From the NCBI GenBank assembly GCA_020692355.1, contig JAIMKP010000019.1, positions 20,664-55,589 on the forward strand: a stretch of DNA of 34,926 bases. The letters run 5' to 3'. Made by a program: the position numbers and the translations under genes. Origin of the DNA: Desulfosporosinus sp. Its GTDB lineage: Bacteria > Bacillota > Desulfitobacteriia > Desulfitobacteriales > Desulfitobacteriaceae. Below are positions 11,717-20,007 of this stretch, one piece after another. The notes under the pieces are model-generated. The model did no database searches. It saw only the letters and a program-made list of their open reading frames with translations, and had not been told where the DNA came from. The stretch's first letter is position 1, and each line of letters opens with the position of its first letter.

Positions 11717-11734
11717 AAACCTCACCTCTGTATG

Positions 11735-11770
11735 CATTCCCTATACATTCCCTATACATTCCCTATACAT
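11735..11770. repeat. 11-base tandem repeat before miaA
   Basis: CATTCCCTATA occurs three times without interruption (11735-11745, 11746-11756, 11757-11767), followed by CATT. On the minus strand each copy supplies GGGAATG, with its ATG in a different frame because 11 is not a multiple of three. It lies in the gap between the methyltransferase stop and miaA. Confidence 0.9.
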
Positions 11771-11783
11771 TAAACATTTCCTA

Positions 11784-12599
11784 TTAATCCGACTCGATCA
11801 CCCCATAATCCACTTGGCTGTACCTACCACTTTCGACCACTTCAAAGCCTAAACGGGCGAATTCTCGGCTTCCTTTGCGCTCTTTAAGCACGACGCGCTT
11901 ACGGGCCACACGGCAGGCTGCCGCGATCGTTTCGCGAGTCAACTCCCCATGCTCAGCATAGGCATGGAGCGGACGGATGCTGGCTGACTTCGTGCGCGTC
12001 CTGCGGAACATCGGATCAAAATAGACCACATCGAAAGTCTGATCCCCCAAGTTCTTGAGAAACTCCCCGTGTTCCTCCCAGCAAACCTGAATCCTTGGAG
12101 CAGCCTCAAACAAACCGACCCAGGCTTTTGCTTTAGCGGCAGAAACTCCGACCACATCATGCCTTGCGCCCAAGGTTGCCAAGCCGTCTTTCACGAGGGC
12201 AGCAAGTATCGCCGCCTGTTCAATCCCCACCACGCTCCCCTGGGGCCCAACAGCAAAGGCAGCGACTAAAGCATCCGTGCCCAACCCCAGGGTCGCATCC
12301 AAGAGGGCATCTCCTGGTGTCAGTCCGGTGGCTCCGAGAAAACGATCCGCTTGGCCGCGCTCGAGATTCATAAGCCTCAACAAGGCCATGCTTGGGTGAA
12401 AGCGCAGTCTCTCCTCCCCTGAAAGGAGAATCACTCCTTTGCGGCTAATGTGAAGTTCACTCACAGTTCCTCCTTGCAGGGGCTCGACAGCAGCCAGGAT
12501 GATCCCAGGTTGGTGGAGAAACCACTCTAATTTGGCGTGCAAGCTTTGATCACCAGGATGGGTTAGCTTGAAGCGGATTGGAAAAGGCTGTGCATTCAT
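11784..12599 (-). CDS. Class I SAM methyltransferase, RsmJ-like
   Basis: A 271-residue soluble protein. The SAM-binding motif is DATLGLGTDALVAAFAVG (about residues 100-117), with the acidic second motif at VVGIEQ. The catalytic-type motif is VVYFDPMFRRTRTKSASIRPL (DPMF), very similar to the RsmJ/YhiQ family that methylates 16S rRNA G1516 in gammaproteobacteria, and to uncharacterised Firmicute relatives often found near mutL and miaA. DPMF in place of DPPY suggests guanine-N2 methylation, but the real substrate is unproven. The ATG at 12599 overlaps the mutL stop in an ATGA, so translation is probably coupled to mutL. The N-terminal 90 residues are less conserved. Confidence 0.8.
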   Translation of the reverse strand: MNAQPFPIRFKLTHPGDQSLHAKLEWFLHQPGIILAAVEPLQGGTVSELHISRKGVILLSGEERLRFHPSMALLRLMNLERGQADRFLGATGLTPGDALLDATLGLGTDALVAAFAVGPQGSVVGIEQAAILAALVKDGLATLGARHDVVGVSAAKAKAWVGLFEAAPRIQVCWEEHGEFLKNLGDQTFDVVYFDPMFRRTRTKSASIRPLHAYAEHGELTRETIAAACRVARKRVVLKERKGSREFARLGFEVVESGRYSQVDYGVIESD

Positions 12600-14479
12600 A
12601 TCCGGTAAAATCTTCTTTCCAATTCGTTTTTGGACAGTTGAATCATGGTTGGCCTTCCATGCGGGCAGGTGTACGGATTTTCCGTTTTAGCTAAGCGATT
12701 TAAAAGCTGCTCCATCTCCAGGAGAGATAATGACTCCTGCGCTTTAAGCGAGGCTTTACAAGCCAAGCGATAAATCCATTCCTCCAAGAGCTGATCAAAG
12801 GAAGGGGCTGTTTGAGTGGAGAGGATGGTGTCGATAAACTGACGCAACAGTTCCTCAGCAGACAAGGGAGCCGCCTGCACCGGAACGGCTCGGAGTAGAT
12901 ACGTCTGCGCCCCAAACTGTTCGAGCACGAACCCCAGTTTGTCCAAGGCCCAAAGATATTCCAAAACAATTTGCTCTTCTTGCAGTGTGAGTTCAAAAGG
13001 TATAGGGATAAGCAACGCTTGGCTTTGGGTTTCGCGCTCCTTTGTCTCACGCAGAAACGCTTCATAATTGATGCGTTCATGGGCTGCATGCTGATCGATT
13101 ACAACCAGTACTTTGCCATCGGTCGCCAGAATATAAGTACTAAAGACCTGCGCGAGCGGCCAGAGGCCCAACGTATCCGAAGAAATAAGGGATTGCTTCC
13201 AGGTTGGGACACTATCGTTCGGCGCTTCGACGGGCCCTAGCACCCCATTGGTCGCTCCTTCTCCTTCTCCTTCTCCTTCTCCTTCCCCTGATATCATAGG
13301 ACTATCCAAGTTCTTTAAAGCCTTCATCACCTCTAAGGCTGCACCGGGGTTTTCCCGATAGCCCCGCTCTTTTTCCCAATAGGTCGACGTTTTTTCCGCT
13401 ATGTGTCCGGATTCATCTCCAGTGTTTTCCAGAGGAATGCCCATCCCCATTCTCGGATGCTTTTCCGCTCCCAGAGACGGCAATGGACTTTTGCTTAAAA
13501 GCGCTTCGCGGATTCCCTCGGCGATAAACTGAGCCAGCTCCTGCTCACGAACAAATTTTACATCCATCTTCGTAGGATGGACATTAACATCATACTCCCC
13601 TGGAGGAAGGTGCAGATGCAAAATCGCAATCGGGTATAGTTTTGCCGGAATCAGGGTATGGTAACCATCCAGCAACGCCCGGGTCAGAAGAGGGGAACGG
13701 ATATAGCGCCCATTGACGATGAATGTCAGCGTTTGCCGATTGGAACGGACCAAATCCGGCGGGCTGATATACCCTGCCAATAGCCAGCCTTCTCGGGCAA
13801 AGGAAACCGGGAGCAGGCGACGGGCCAGATTCGCCCCCAACATGGCGGCGATGCTTTCCAAGGGTTTGCCTCGGCCAGGGGTCTGAAAGATGGCTTGGCG
13901 CGGATGTGAGAGGCTAAAGGCCACATCAGGACGAGCCAGGGCCAAGCGCCCAACCGTATCACTGATGAGCCCAAATTCGGTATTGTTCGAGCGCAGAAAT
14001 TTGAGCCTGGCAGGGGTATTGAAAAACAAGTTCTCTACCGTCACCGTGGTACCCACCGGACATCCGGCTTCTTCAAGCTTGAGCGCCGTCCCGCCTTCGA
14101 GCCTGAGAATATGGCCGACGGACTCCTCAGGTGGACGAGAAAGGATTTCCAGCCGCGCCACAGAAGCAATACTCGGTAGTGCCTCACCGCGAAATCCGAG
14201 GGTCGTCAATGTGTTGAGATCCTCGATCTCACGGATTTTACTCGTCGCGTGTCGCAACACGGCCCGTGTCAGGTCATCCGCCTGGATCCCCAGCCCATCA
14301 TCGCGAACCCGCATGAGCGGCACCCCATTACCTTCTACCGCGATGTCAATCCGCCGCGCTCCTGCGTCCAGCGCGTTCTCTACCAACTCTTTGATCACGG
14401 AAACAGGGCGCTCAACCACTTCCCCAGCAGCAATCTGGTTGGCGGCATGGGGATTAAGGACGTGGATCACTGGGGCCAA
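12596..14479 (-). CDS. mutL: DNA mismatch repair protein MutL
   Basis: A 627-residue mismatch repair ATPase and endonuclease. The GHKL ATPase domain has ELVENALDAG (31-40), DDGLGI and GFRGEAL (96-102). The C-terminal domain has the nuclease motif DQHAAHERINYE (462-473), plus ACKASLKAQE and CPHGRP (605-610), so it is the nicking MutL type found in bacteria without MutH. Between them lies a variable linker with an uninterrupted (Gly-Glu) run at 398-408 coded by a six-base tandem repeat. The TTG at 14479, nine bases after AAGGAG, is preferred; GTG at 14470 is possible. It overlaps the deacetylase-like gene by 26 bases and the methyltransferase gene by 4. It acts with MutS, encoded 3 kb upstream in the same direction. 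Confidence 0.96.
   Translation of the reverse strand: MAPVIHVLNPHAANQIAAGEVVERPVSVIKELVENALDAGARRIDIAVEGNGVPLMRVRDDGLGIQADDLTRAVLRHATSKIREIEDLNTLTTLGFRGEALPSIASVARLEILSRPPEESVGHILRLEGGTALKLEEAGCPVGTTVTVENLFFNTPARLKFLRSNNTEFGLISDTVGRLALARPDVAFSLSHPRQAIFQTPGRGKPLESIAAMLGANLARRLLPVSFAREGWLLAGYISPPDLVRSNRQTLTFIVNGRYIRSPLLTRALLDGYHTLIPAKLYPIAILHLHLPPGEYDVNVHPTKMDVKFVREQELAQFIAEGIREALLSKSPLPSLGAEKHPRMGMGIPLENTGDESGHIAEKTSTYWEKERGYRENPGAALEVMKALKNLDSPMISGEGEGEGEGEGATNGVLGPVEAPNDSVPTWKQSLISSDTLGLWPLAQVFSTYILATDGKVLVVIDQHAAHERINYEAFLRETKERETQSQALLIPIPFELTLQEEQIVLEYLWALDKLGFVLEQFGAQTYLLRAVPVQAAPLSAEELLRQFIDTILSTQTAPSFDQLLEEWIYRLACKASLKAQESLSLLEMEQLLNRLAKTENPYTCPHGRPTMIQLSKNELERRFYRI
13255..13284. repeat. 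Six-base tandem repeat inside mutL
   Basis: CTCCTT is repeated five times in a row. On the coding strand this gives alternating GAA GGA codons. Changes in copy number would add or remove Glu-Gly pairs without shifting the frame. Confidence 0.95.
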
Positions 14480-15800
14480 AGACCTTCACTCCTTTACTGA
14501 TGTGCCAAAATTGAACAACATTTCCTGGTTGATCTTGAAACGTCACGCTCTCCATCCGTCCAATCAGATATTCCCATAAATCATATCCTGCCTGCCGACA
14601 CTCGGGACAGGCTGCAAAGGGAACTCTAACCAGGGCATGACGAGTGTGAAATGGAGGCCTGCGGCTCTCAATATAGACTGTGCCACCACAATGAGAACAC
14701 TGGCGTACGCGGTCATAACGCATCTCTTGGAACCCTTCTGTATCATAATATATCGTGCGCGGAATGTAAGCCCAGTACCCGCCCGGAAGAGAAGCCTCCG
14801 CTCTCCAGAGCCAATTCGCCTGAACCTGATCATATTCCCGCTTCAACTCTTGGATGTAGGGTTTGATTTGGCTTAAGGGCACCTCAGGCCGTGTCGGACG
14901 CTTAGCTTCCACCACCCCGGAGTAATCCTCCCCGGCCAAGGCGAGCAGAATCGCCAAGTTGACATAAGGCAAAGCATCTTCAATGGAATACCCACCTTCT
15001 AAGACTGCGAGATCCGGTTTCAAACGCTCTGTGATCCGGCCATAGCCACGAGCACTGACATTCATTGATGCCAGGGGATCGGTAAAATGGTTGTCTTGAC
15101 CAGCCGAGTTAATGACAATGTCCGGCTTGAACGCTTGTAAACGCGGCAAGACCCATTCTTCTAATGCATAAAGAATGCCCTCATCCCCGGTCCCGGGCGG
15201 CAGCGGGATATCCACATTCATACCCCAGGCATTCGGTCCCCCCTTCTCCTCGACAAACCCGGATCCGGGATACAAGGTTCTCCCGTCCTGATGCAAGGAG
15301 ATAAATAAGACATTCGGATCGTGGTAGAAAATATCTTGCGTACCATCCCCATGATGCACATCCGTATCCACAATGGCAATCCTCTGATAACCGTACTCTG
15401 CTCTTAAATGATTTACCAAAATAGCCTCGTTATTTAAAGTGCAAAAACCACGATTGCCAAGTACTGTAGCACCTGCATGATGCCCCGGCGGGCGGACGAG
15501 CGCAAACCCATTTTGAATCTGCCCTTTTGCCAGGGCGTCGCCTAGGATTAGAGTGCTCCCTGCCGCAATGAGGTGAGCATCGAGGTCATGATGCTCAGGT
15601 GAGGGAAATACCGCTTGGGCCAACAAGGCTTTGGTGAGGGGAGCCATTCCTGGGGCAAACTGTTTGATCTGAGGGAGATCGAGGATTCCTTCCTCAAAAA
15701 GCTGTTCTTGCGTATAAAGTAAACGCTCTTCACGTTCCGGATGAGTTTCCCCCAAGGACCAATCGAAAGCCGGGAAAAAAAGTATTCCGGTATTTTTCAT
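14454..15800 (-). CDS. HDAC/AcuC-family deacetylase with zinc ribbon
   Basis: A 448-residue protein. Residues 1-290 are a zinc-dependent histone-deacetylase/acetoin-utilisation type hydrolase. RPPGHHA holds the catalytic His pair (107-108). DTDVHHGDGTQD holds the metal ligands D147 and H149, GQDNHFTDPLA the third ligand D236, and LEGGY the transition-state Tyr271. All core residues are present, so it should be active on an acetylated or acylated amine. Beyond the family core is a 150-residue extension with CSHC (368-371) and CPEC (398-401), a likely zinc ribbon. Its ATG directly abuts the stop of the HyuA-like gene, and its end overlaps mutL by 26 bases. Substrates could be acetyl-lysine, acetylpolyamines or a small acyl compound. 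Confidence 0.88.
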   Translation of the reverse strand: MKNTGILFFPAFDWSLGETHPEREERLLYTQEQLFEEGILDLPQIKQFAPGMAPLTKALLAQAVFPSPEHHDLDAHLIAAGSTLILGDALAKGQIQNGFALVRPPGHHAGATVLGNRGFCTLNNEAILVNHLRAEYGYQRIAIVDTDVHHGDGTQDIFYHDPNVLFISLHQDGRTLYPGSGFVEEKGGPNAWGMNVDIPLPPGTGDEGILYALEEWVLPRLQAFKPDIVINSAGQDNHFTDPLASMNVSARGYGRITERLKPDLAVLEGGYSIEDALPYVNLAILLALAGEDYSGVVEAKRPTRPEVPLSQIKPYIQELKREYDQVQANWLWRAEASLPGGYWAYIPRTIYYDTEGFQEMRYDRVRQCSHCGGTVYIESRRPPFHTRHALVRVPFAACPECRQAGYDLWEYLIGRMESVTFQDQPGNVVQFWHISKGVKVFGPSDPRP

Positions 15801-17441
15801 TTAACTGATCCTCCCTCGCACTCCTGGTGGAACATGAAGCGCACCGCGCACGATCTGTCCCACGGTTTTGAATTCTTGCACGATTGGAAAAAAGTCAAAC
15901 TCCTCTTTCTGAGCATCGCGTAGATCAATCCCCTGGGCGGCAGCGAGGCGCAGAGCGACCTGTTCAAGAAAGGTATCAACTTCTAGGTGCGGTCGTTTCG
16001 AGCCTTCCCAAATCCCCTGCTCTCCGGTTTCTTCAATACGAAAACGGCGCAACACGGTATCAAGATGAAGTGTACAGGAAAACGTCGGTCGCGCTAAGGC
16101 GGCACCGATGGCATTGGAAACCTCAGGGTATCTGCCGATCCGCACTTTTGTGTGCAGGCGTTCTTCGAGATAGGTTTTGAGCCCGCTAGCGCATCCGCCA
16201 CTGGCCCAGACATGAAGCTGTAAAGCCTCATGTGGGTGTAGAACTCCCCAAATCTTGTAGGCTGGCTCCTCCCGCCACTCCTTTTCCAAGCTTTCGATTT
16301 CCTGGGCAATCCGCTCCGCAACCATTTGCAGGATGTGCTGGGCCGTTTGAGCAAGTTCCTGGGGTTGCATTAGGGATGCCAAAGCCGCTCCCGCTTTCTG
16401 GCGGTCGCCGAAGGGAACAAGACCGAGATAGCACATGGCATCCGTCGGGGTCGGTACGGGCCCACCCAGGCAAAAGGCCGGCCCCAGACGATATCTAGCT
16501 AAGCTCAGTTCCTTTCCCTGGCGTATAACCGCAGAATCTCCACCAACTGGAACCGAGCGAACGGCCAAGGAACGGACAAGGGTGGCAAACGGCCCGATTT
16601 GCGCCCCGCGCGAACTCAAGAGTGGGGAATTCGAGAGAACGATCCCTAAGTCCGTTGTCGTCCCGCCAATATCAACGACCACAAAGGATGAAGCATCAGT
16701 TTGGGCCATCGCCCCTAACACACTGGCAGCCGGGCCGGAATAGACGGTTTCTACGGGTCGAATTCGGCTCAAGGGCAGAACCCCGCCGTCTGCTTTAAGT
16801 ACCATGATTGGAGCTCGAATACCGCGCTGGGCCACGGCTTGTTCTAAACCAGAAGCAAATTGCGTAAAAAGCTCAGTACTCGTCAAGTTAAGGTAGGCCG
16901 TTAAGCTACGACGATAAAAATTCGCTTGGCCCCAGTCATGCCCTAGGGCAATATGGGCCTGGGGATCGGCTTGGCGAAACACGGTCGCCAAGCGTTCTTC
17001 ATGGATTTTATTGCGGTGAGAAAACTTGCCGACAATGGTTACGAGGTTTGATTCTCTCTCTTTCTTCCACTGTTGGGCGGCACGGTACCATTCCAAGTCA
17101 TTGGGCTGAACCACTTCCCGGCCACGGTAATCTATCTCCCCGGACAGAACTTCATAAGGGATGGGCCAAGCGAACGACTCCATTTTCATACCCGACCCTG
17201 GGAGGAGATAGACTTTTCCTTCGGGCAAGCGCCTTTGTAGAATTCCGTTCGTCACAAGGGTTGTGCTCACGGTGATATGCTCCAATTCTTTCCCTGCTAC
17301 ATCGAGTTGATCCAGGGCATTGAGTAGGGTCAGCAGCAGGTTTTCCTGGGTCGGCACTTTGGTCTTTTTGGTGATGACGCCCTCTGTGAGCAGAACCGCA
17401 TCGGTAAAAGTCCCCCCCACATCAATCCCAACTTGGCTCAT
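15801..17441 (-). CDS. Hydantoinase/oxoprolinase (HyuA)-family protein
   Basis: A 546-residue soluble protein of the HyuA/oxoprolinase ATPase-like family, related to acetone carboxylase and N-methylhydantoinase subunit A. The N-terminal phosphate-binding stretch GIDVGGTFTDAVLL (residues 4-17) and the second site VVDIGGTTTDLGIVL identify the actin-like ATP fold. HITVSTTLVTNGILQRR is the typical HyuA_N segment. At 546 residues it is shorter than most HyuA proteins (about 650-700), and no HyuB partner is present. It therefore may not be a classical hydantoinase. AAGGGGG precedes the ATG at 17441. It follows mutS by 13 bases and abuts the deacetylase-like gene, which suggests these two work together on one substrate; that is inference. 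Confidence 0.85.
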   Translation of the reverse strand: MSQVGIDVGGTFTDAVLLTEGVITKKTKVPTQENLLLTLLNALDQLDVAGKELEHITVSTTLVTNGILQRRLPEGKVYLLPGSGMKMESFAWPIPYEVLSGEIDYRGREVVQPNDLEWYRAAQQWKKERESNLVTIVGKFSHRNKIHEERLATVFRQADPQAHIALGHDWGQANFYRRSLTAYLNLTSTELFTQFASGLEQAVAQRGIRAPIMVLKADGGVLPLSRIRPVETVYSGPAASVLGAMAQTDASSFVVVDIGGTTTDLGIVLSNSPLLSSRGAQIGPFATLVRSLAVRSVPVGGDSAVIRQGKELSLARYRLGPAFCLGGPVPTPTDAMCYLGLVPFGDRQKAGAALASLMQPQELAQTAQHILQMVAERIAQEIESLEKEWREEPAYKIWGVLHPHEALQLHVWASGGCASGLKTYLEERLHTKVRIGRYPEVSNAIGAALARPTFSCTLHLDTVLRRFRIEETGEQGIWEGSKRPHLEVDTFLEQVALRLAAAQGIDLRDAQKEEFDFFPIVQEFKTVGQIVRGALHVPPGVRGRIS

Positions 17442-17454
17442 TCCCTAACCCCCT

Positions 17455-20007
17455 TCACATCACTTCTAAAACCCTTAATCGTTCCCTCAGCTCAAATAAG
17501 TAATCCAATGCTTGGCGAGGGCTCATGTCTTCCACGTCGAGATCCGCAATCTCGCTTAAGAGCGGATGAAGCTCCGGTTCATCAAAAAGAGCCAGTTGAG
17601 TGGCCGGTTTGGACTGCAACAACTCTTGGGTATGACCAGAGGAACTTTCCAATTCCTGTAGCAAGCCTTTAGCCCGTTGCAGCAAATCCCCTGGAACTCC
17701 TGCTAGGCGAGCGACTTGAATGCCGTAACTTCGATCCGCTTTTCCGGGGAGAATCTTATGCAAAAAAATGATCTCCTCCCCATGTTCACGCACACTCACA
17801 TGTAGGTTAAAAGCCCCTGGAAACGCTTCAAGCTGTGTGAGTTCATGATAGTGAGTGGCAAACAGAGTTTTCGGCTGCAAGGCCGGGTTTTTCAATAAAT
17901 ATTCGGCAACTGCCCAGGCGATACTTAACCCATCAAAGGTGGCTGTTCCCCTCCCGACCTCATCCAGAATCACCAAGCTGTTAGGTGTGGCTTTTTTGAG
18001 AATCTGGGCGACCTCCTGCATTTCTACCATGAAGGTGCTTTGTCCGGAAGCCAAATCATCAGAAGCCCCCACACGGGTGAAGATTCGATCCACCAAAGAA
18101 ATATCCGCTTTCTTGGCTGGGACAAAGGATCCCATGTGCGCCATTAGCGTGATGAGCGCGACTTGACGCATGTAGGTTGATTTACCCGCCATGTTCGGAC
18201 CGGTGATAATCCCTAGATGTTTTTTTCGGGTGAGCACGGTATCATTGGGAACAAAGGTCGCAGACTCCAGCATCTCCTCCACCACCGGATGCCGCCCCTC
18301 GCTGATTTGAAGTTCTCCCCGCTCATTCAGCTCAGGGCGCACATAATCATGACGTACCGCCGTCTCGGCTAATCCTGCTAGAACATCAATTTCAGCAAGT
18401 TCCTGAGCAAGCCTCAGTATTTCTGTGGTTGCCTGGCGCGCTTCCTCCCTCAATTCCAGAAAGATCTGATACTCCAATTCTTTGAGCCGGTTTTCCGCCG
18501 TTAGGATCTTCTCCTCATAGGCCTTGAGTTCAGGCGTGACAAACCGCTCTGCATTGGCTAAGGTTTGTTTACGCAGATAATCGCTGGGCACGAGATGAGC
18601 ATTCGCATGCGTAATCTCGATGTAATAACCAAAGACCCTATTGTATCCCACTTTGAGTGAACGGATCCCTGTCCGCTCCCGTTCGCTGCTTTCTAAAGCA
18701 GCCACCCAACCCCGGCCGCCTGAAGCCACTTCCCTCAGGCTATCAACTTCAGAGGAATATCCGCGTTGAATCAAGTTCCCGTCCTTGATTCCAAGTGGCG
18801 CTTCAGGGTTCAACGCGTTTTCCAAGTTTTCGGCCAAAGCAGGGATAGCAGGCGAATATTTTAGATAGGATTGCAGCGGGACAGCACCGCTTTCCTGTAG
18901 TACCTCCTGCAACAGGGGAACGGATTTTAAGGTTTGGGCAAGAGCCAGCATATCCCTGGCATTCGCATTTCCATAGGCGATCTTTCCCATTAAACGTTTG
19001 GCGTCATATACTTTAGCCAGACGCCCCTGCAAGTCTCCCCTGAGAAACCCATCCTCGACGAGGGCTGTGACCGCATCCAAGCGCCGGTTGATTTTTGTTT
19101 TTGAAAGGAGTGGCTGTTCTACCCAGTGGCGCAGGAGTCGGGTGCCGCCAGCCGTTTTTGTTCGATCCAGAACCGCCAGGAGCGTCCCTTTACGTGTTTT
19201 ACCACGCATCCCCTCTGTCAATTCCAGGTTGCGCCGCGTCCAGGGATCGAGGCCCATCCATTCCCCCTGACGATGCACTTTAATCTCGAGAATATGACTG
19301 GGATTCACACCCGGCATATTTTCCTCAAAGTAGCGCCAGAGCGCGTTAGCCGCTTGACCAGCGGCAGGGTACTCTAAAAAAAGAGCAGCCTGCGCGGGAA
19401 AACGCTCAGCGAGAGCCTCCACTCCGAGAAAATCGGCACGGGCCCGTTCTGTTAAGTAATACCCTTGCCAGGCTTGGGGTCGTGCCCTTAAATCCCTTGG
19501 CAGCAAAAGTTCAGCCGGATGGATGCGAGCGAGTTCAGCTTGTAGCTGCTCCAGAGCGCGGGTTTGAAACATGGCAAACTCGCCGGAAGCCACATCCAAA
19601 AAAGCCAATCCCCATTCCACATCATAGAAAACACTGGCCAGGTAGTTATCCTGTTCCTCAGGGAGGTTTTCGGTCAATGTCCCTGGGGAAACAATGCGAA
19701 TGATTTCCCGCTTGACAATCCCTTTAGCCTGCTTAGGGTCTTCGACTTGCTCACATATGGCTACCTTATACCCGGCTGACACCAATTTCGCCATATAATG
19801 TTCAACCGCATGATAAGGGACACCACACATGGGTACCCTCTGACTACCCCCTGCATCCCGTCCGGTCAAGGCTATCTCGAGAATCGGTGCAGCCAATTCG
19901 GCATCAGCTGCAAACATTTCGTAAAAATCCCCTAAACGGAAGAACAGAATCGCTTCCGGTATCTGCGCCTTAATCTGTTGGTACTGCTGCATCATCGGGG
20001 TACTCAT
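17455..20007 (-). CDS. mutS: DNA mismatch repair protein MutS
   Basis: An 850-residue mismatch-recognition ATPase of normal MutS1 length. The N-terminus has the mismatch-reading Phe-x-Glu in FFRLGDFYEMF (F28, E30). The C-terminal ABC-type ATPase has Walker A GPNMAGKSTYMRQ, the DDLASGQSTFMVEM signature, Walker B LVILDEVGRGTATFDG and the downstream FATHYHELTQL. After about residue 790 there is a short tail with the helix-turn-helix dimer region (DMSPRQALDYLFELRERL). It starts at ATG 20007 with GGAGAA upstream. A terminator after the YlbF-like gene precedes it, so it may have its own promoter or depend on read-through. It acts with MutL. Confidence 0.97.
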   Translation of the reverse strand: MSTPMMQQYQQIKAQIPEAILFFRLGDFYEMFAADAELAAPILEIALTGRDAGGSQRVPMCGVPYHAVEHYMAKLVSAGYKVAICEQVEDPKQAKGIVKREIIRIVSPGTLTENLPEEQDNYLASVFYDVEWGLAFLDVASGEFAMFQTRALEQLQAELARIHPAELLLPRDLRARPQAWQGYYLTERARADFLGVEALAERFPAQAALFLEYPAAGQAANALWRYFEENMPGVNPSHILEIKVHRQGEWMGLDPWTRRNLELTEGMRGKTRKGTLLAVLDRTKTAGGTRLLRHWVEQPLLSKTKINRRLDAVTALVEDGFLRGDLQGRLAKVYDAKRLMGKIAYGNANARDMLALAQTLKSVPLLQEVLQESGAVPLQSYLKYSPAIPALAENLENALNPEAPLGIKDGNLIQRGYSSEVDSLREVASGGRGWVAALESSERERTGIRSLKVGYNRVFGYYIEITHANAHLVPSDYLRKQTLANAERFVTPELKAYEEKILTAENRLKELEYQIFLELREEARQATTEILRLAQELAEIDVLAGLAETAVRHDYVRPELNERGELQISEGRHPVVEEMLESATFVPNDTVLTRKKHLGIITGPNMAGKSTYMRQVALITLMAHMGSFVPAKKADISLVDRIFTRVGASDDLASGQSTFMVEMQEVAQILKKATPNSLVILDEVGRGTATFDGLSIAWAVAEYLLKNPALQPKTLFATHYHELTQLEAFPGAFNLHVSVREHGEEIIFLHKILPGKADRSYGIQVARLAGVPGDLLQRAKGLLQELESSSGHTQELLQSKPATQLALFDEPELHPLLSEIADLDVEDMSPRQALDYLFELRERLRVLEVM

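Follow-up and report, generated by a model that had tools for sequence, protein, structure and literature searches.

A Conserved Pair of HyuA-Type ATPase and HDAC-Superfamily Genes between mutS and mutL of Desulfosporosinus sp. as a Possible ATP-Dependent Amidohydrolase

Introduction

The closest described relatives of the gene pair studied here are the caprolactamase CapAB of Pseudomonas jessenii and the HyuA/HyuB hydantoinase/5-oxoprolinase family on the one hand, and the HdaH-type deacylases on the other. For CapAB, it was proposed that CapA activates the lactam with ATP, CapB being a zinc hydrolase that is reached by a tunnel (PMC8453981). The pair resembles CapAB in that an ATPase gene is combined with a zinc hydrolase gene. 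Its HyuA-type protein shares the HyuA fold and both phosphate motifs with CapAB and the HyuA/HyuB family, as well as the lysine (K28) and the aspartate (D264) featured by the hydrolytic members. However, the partner is an enzyme of the HDAC fold rather than HyuB/CapB, and the HyuA-type protein, which is approximately 150 amino acids shorter than CapA, has no GxxPGP adenosine motif.

The HDAC-type protein is similar to the HdaH-type deacylases (cluster 1, PMC11532494; PDB entries 1zz0, 5g0x, and 9glb) regarding the fold of the catalytic domain, the HH motif, the DxD/H/D zinc ligands, the catalytic tyrosine, and the RPP motif. It differs from cluster 1 by carrying Asp152 at a position occupied by asparagine in that cluster, and from the HdaH-type enzymes by its AGQDNH signature, an additional C-terminal zinc-ribbon-like domain, and its near-obligate pairing with HyuA.

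Searches of a literature library revealed no paper joining hydantoinase, histone deacetylase, and mutS/mutL, and those on Methanosarcina, HyuA operons, and Desulfitobacterium returned nothing relevant to the pair. A large study of classical deacylases in bacteria refers to neither hydantoinase nor Clostridia in its main text (PMC11532494). As far as checked, the near-obligate HyuA–HDAC pairing is undescribed, while both components belong to known superfamilies.

Results

The window, i.e., the whole stretch of 34,926 nucleotides from Desulfosporosinus sp. that was analyzed, carries mutS, the HyuA-type gene, the HDAC-type gene, and mutL in a head-to-tail arrangement (Table 1). The gaps of 13, 0, and −26 bases given in the original prediction agreed to the base with the open reading frames, and its assignment of both inserts to the HyuA and HDAC families was confirmed using Pfam and NCBIfam. 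The HyuA-type protein matched the Pfam families Hydantoinase_A and Hydant_A_N (1.5e-30 and 1.9e-21, respectively), and no model for the HDAC-type protein was found in NCBIfam. Ribosome-binding-like sites precede hyuA, the HDAC gene, and the TTG start codon of mutL, the last of these being an AAAGGAG site located about nine bases upstream. The set is extended by miaB and a YlbF-like gene on its upstream side, and by a gene for a SAM-dependent methyltransferase and miaA on its downstream side; the spacing of the four genes suggests that they may be co-transcribed.

Two tandem repeats were also observed in this region. The linker of mutL contains an in-frame six-base repeat (positions 13255–13289; 5.8 copies of CTCCTT as read on the plus strand). 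In Salmonella, changes in a six-base mutL repeat toggle repair and, by analogy, length variation of the repeat in the window might matter. An eleven-base repeat (positions 11731–11771; 3.7 copies) lies between the SAM-methyltransferase gene and miaA, just before miaA.

Table 1. Positions of the genes and motifs of the locus in the window, and of the split pair in a Desulfobacterota genome.
Feature	Position	Strand	Description
mutS	17455..20007	-	850 aa; TIGR01070 (MutS1), 1044 bits; upstream neighbour, outside the module
HyuA-type ATPase gene	15801..17441	-	546 aa; first gene of the pair; Pfam PF01968/PF05378
Phosphate-1 motif DVGGTFTD	17400..17423	-	residues 7–14; aligned with CapA D11–D18 (PMC8453981)
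Phosphate-2 motif DIGGTTTD	16650..16673	-	residues 257–264; matches CapA D295–D302
HDAC-superfamily gene	14454..15800	-	448 aa; second gene of the pair; PF00850 (Hist_deacetyl), 2.6e-68
Zinc-site motif DTDVHH	15351..15368	-	residues 145–150; DxDxHH invariant in the alignment, 80/80 further loci
Family signature QDNH	15087..15098	-	residues 235–238; D236 is the third zinc ligand
C-terminal CxxC...CxxC zinc-ribbon-like core	14598..14699	-	residues 368–401; C368, C371, C398, and C401 invariant
mutL	12596..14479	-	627 aa; TIGR00585, 532 bits; downstream neighbour, outside the module
Split pair of genome G415 (Desulfobacterota)	L211 (G415:C1:2722608-2724395) and L138		

The AF2 model of the HyuA-type protein (pLDDT 93) matched best the PDB structures of acetophenone carboxylase ApcA (Z 28.1), an acetone carboxylase subunit (Z 26.9), and caprolactamase CapA (Z 25.4), and its structural relatives also include the archaeal protein 3c0b. 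An ASKHA fold with the phosphate-1 (DxGGTxxD) and phosphate-2 (DxGGT) motifs, as is characteristic of the HyuA family, was recognized. Among 42 HyuA homologues, D7, G9, G10, T11, and T13 of the first motif and D257, G259, G260, and D264 of the second one were invariant, D264 corresponding to Asp302 of CapA, and the conserved lysine of the hydrolytic members is kept. Profile alignments with caprolactamase and N-methylhydantoinase revealed that the adenosine motif, another family trait, has been lost by a deletion of three residues; hence, nucleotide use may differ from that of CapA.

HyuB/CapB (PF02538), the usual second component of the family, yielded no match in the genome of the window, which was rated 100% complete. 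Within a set of 11 genomes tested, matches were likewise missing in Syntrophomonas wolfei, one Methanothrix genome, and two relatives, and PF02538 was present in six, e.g., Methanosarcina and Desulfotruncus, in none of which a link to the pair was seen. Since HyuB occurs elsewhere in some pair-bearing genomes, its absence is not general. The window's genome contains a second HyuA-like gene (L213:25-2594), which overlaps an S-Me-THD (DUF917) gene. This second HyuA resembles that of the pair as a HyuA-type ATPase without HyuB that is coupled to another partner gene, but represents a different HyuA subgroup, as it reached 200 bits with the pair profile compared to 692 for the gene in the window.

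The AF2 model of the HDAC-type protein (pLDDT 90) features the arginase/deacetylase fold of the HDAC superfamily, and its residues 1–327 matched HdaH enzymes at a Z score of approximately 40. According to residue roles mapped from PMC11532494, the zinc ligands (D147, H149, and D236), the tandem histidines (H107 and H108), and the catalytic tyrosine (Y271) are all in place; these residues and D145 were invariant in 39 diverse rows of the alignment, as was the QDNH signature. The extended form AGQDNH[YF] was found in all 80 further loci, and the RPP foot-pocket motif is conserved as well. The C-terminal CxxC...CxxC core was present in all of the best 80 named loci and in 70 of the 80 further loci, and is missing in archaeal sister proteins. 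Internal stops in three homologues, considered as candidates for selenocysteine incorporation or read-through, turned out to be simply the ends of the genes at these points.

HyuA was located directly upstream of the HDAC gene on the same strand in all of the best 80 named loci, the most common spacing being an overlap of four bases and the others mostly amounting to a few bases. A phylum sample of 159 evenly drawn genomes contained the HDAC family in 63 genomes, in each of which a pair-type HyuA directly precedes it on the same contig and strand (63/63); in the only genome of this sample with HyuA alone, the contig ends 338 bases after the gene. The pair was also adjacent in 39 out of 40 further loci from bacteria and archaea of three phyla, 21 of the 40 being shared with the phylum sample. 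In the exception, one of 12 Desulfobacterota loci (G415), the two genes are split by approximately 2.6 Mb, yet both are kept, with a full-length pair-type HyuA of 429 bits. This genome offers a natural test of the functional linkage. HyuA is still found upstream of the archaeal sister HDACs devoid of the C-terminal CxxC–CxxC domain, indicating that the pairing is more constant than this domain. An apparent HyuA–HDAC fusion, an open frame of 819 amino acids in genome G153, was rejected, because the frame merely crosses the upstream hyuA in another reading frame.

Regarding the context of the pair, 55 of 61 relatives possess the HDAC. Of the best 80 named loci, a selection biased to close relatives, 56 have mutS and/or mutL immediately beside the pair, including those of Desulfosporosinus, Paradesulfitobacterium, Desulfotruncus, Pelotomaculum, Syntrophomonas wolfei, Thermincola, and others. 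For the phylum sample, 61 of the 63 HDAC loci were fetched: the pair resides between mutS and mutL in 25 of them (the window not counted), is preceded by mutS and followed by the contig end in one, and has neither gene beside it in the remaining 35, although for one of these (L196) the contig is too short for a judgement. The wider set miaB-ylbF-mutS...mutL-methyltransferase-miaA is conserved, too. The recurrence of the four-gene order across many genera indicates that it is not due to chance, and its distribution across the sample shows that it is old. The possibility raised along with the original prediction, namely that the order is a peculiarity of one genome, thus did not materialize.

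Adjoining mutS/mutL were absent from every sampled locus of Methanosarcina, Methanothrix, and Desulfobacterota, including Desulfobacterales; the constant association expected of accessory genes for repair was thus not observed. Two loci (L077 and L093) show the order miaB-hyuA-HDAC-miaA without mutS and mutL. Moreover, seven genomes from the same order or class, in which neither a pair-type HyuA nor the HDAC was detected, have mutS immediately adjoining mutL; one of them (G052) does possess a HyuA, but only one that belongs to a different length class. The label 'mut context' requires six changes on the HDAC tree as opposed to a mean of 21 after shuffling. With midpoint rooting, Bacillota copies enclose the archaeal and Desulfobacterales copies, a nesting that fits transfer of the pair alone.

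For 44 loci carrying all four genes, pairwise distances correlated best for HyuA–HDAC (0.907), followed by MutS–MutL (0.893), whereas the weakest correlation of all pairs was that of HDAC–MutL (0.694). The HyuA–HDAC correlation persisted after MutS and MutL were regressed out (partial r = 0.75). As the pair travels without mutS/mutL and the HyuA–HDAC distances correlate best, both the pairing of HyuA with HDAC and its independence from mismatch repair are well supported.

Neighbours outside the mut context were also inspected. In five Desulfobacterales loci (L080, L099, L103, L105, and L108), the pair follows coaD, mostly with lysR in between, lpxC, ntrYX, and rsmD being located further upstream and a class II tRNA-synthetase-like (EpmA-like) gene directly after the pair; the neighbours lpxC, ntrYX, coaD, and EpmA-like are lineage-local. 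Two archaeal sister pairs without the zinc-ribbon domain (L132 and L133) directly follow a gene for 8-oxoguanine DNA glycosylase, an adjacency that is probably due to chance, although this is another repair neighbour. A joint scan of 97 proteins encoded beside the pair at non-mut loci gave no hint on the substrate, no family recurring in more than four.

Discussion

The pair is kept together across diverse anaerobic bacteria and archaea regardless of the presence of repair genes nearby, and it therefore probably represents one undescribed enzyme or pathway and not a part of mismatch repair. Of the two readings offered by the original prediction, that of an independent pathway was supported with respect to independence, because the module travels without mutS/mutL, whereas regulation of repair by the inserts was not supported, since most lineages carry the pair elsewhere and relatives lacking it keep mutS and mutL joined. 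A modulation of mismatch repair, e.g., by deacylation of MutS or MutL, appears highly improbable: the mutS-hyuA-HDAC-mutL order is indeed old and was retained in many Bacillota genera, but lineages such as Methanosarcina, Methanothrix, and Desulfobacterales carry the pair elsewhere, the two repair genes adjoin each other in the seven pair-less relatives, and HDAC–MutL shows the lowest distance correlation. The placement is quite likely explained by operon inertia only, that is, ancestral entry and slow rearrangement in the absence of a functional link, as is indicated by the few changes of mut context on the HDAC tree and by the conservation of the wider miaB...miaA set. Being an explanation of the placement, it does not conflict with the amidohydrolase function proposed below. 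However, it does not account for the pairing of HyuA with HDAC, and a long stay in one operon could also reflect shared regulation.

Concerning function, we favor, at a probability of roughly 35–40%, a two-component ATP-dependent amidohydrolase in which the HDAC-fold zinc enzyme replaces HyuB. In the way proposed for CapA, the HyuA-type protein would spend ATP on activating a small-molecule amide, lactam, or imide that is difficult to hydrolyse, and it would pass the activated substrate to the zinc site of its HDAC-type partner for cleavage by water; the C-terminal zinc-ribbon-like domain may aid partner docking or substrate binding. That the HDAC-type enzyme fills the place of the HyuB/CapB hydrolase is suggested by its being the only hydrolase constantly found beside the HyuA of the pair and by the lack of HyuB in the window's genome. 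Since the folds of CapB and HDAC are unrelated, the tunnel geometry of CapAB cannot be transferred to the pair. Complex formation, the substrate class, and ATP-driven hydrolysis are what we infer for the pair, and the fact that ordinary HDAC-family enzymes need no ATP counts against the last of these.

Strict pairing and translational coupling would fit equally well with two enzymes acting in sequence in one small-molecule pathway without forming a joint enzyme, for example by a deacylation and a subsequent ATP-dependent ring opening or synthesis. Such an arrangement would agree with the retention of both genes in G415 despite their separation, and HyuA-fold relatives with other chemistry, i.e., acetone carboxylase and the archaeal protein 3c0b, are known. 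It is nevertheless considered unlikely: no recurrent third gene accompanies the pair, as a longer pathway would suggest, and HyuA alone would need a hydrolase, HyuB being missing from the genome of the window. Somewhat more improbable still is a function of the HDAC in the deacylation of protein lysines, by which acyl-CoA-driven acylation in anaerobes would be reversed, with HyuA as a regulating or substrate-recruiting ATPase. The conserved catalytic residues and RPP motif, the dense acyl-lysine marks in syntrophs (PMC9676460), and the deacylation of lysine by bacterial HdaH enzymes (PMC11532494) are in line with this function. However, known bacterial HDACs need no HyuA partner, so that the obligate pairing with a metabolic ATPase would be left unexplained, and the family signature AGQDNH stands, next to a zinc ligand, where the aligned HDAC structures have an AGFD/AGYD-type motif. 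Extending the two-component amidohydrolase to a new class of ATP-driven enzymes, wide in anaerobic bacteria and methanogenic archaea and acting on a common metabolite, is a tentative proposal.

Conclusions

If the proposed function is true, HDAC-fold proteins would gain an ATP-coupled role, and a hydrolase distinct from HyuB would be recognized as a partner of HyuA-type ATPases. The misleading link to mismatch repair suggested by the gene order would fall away, and the pair would point to a metabolite or modification common to syntrophs, sulfate reducers, and methanogens.
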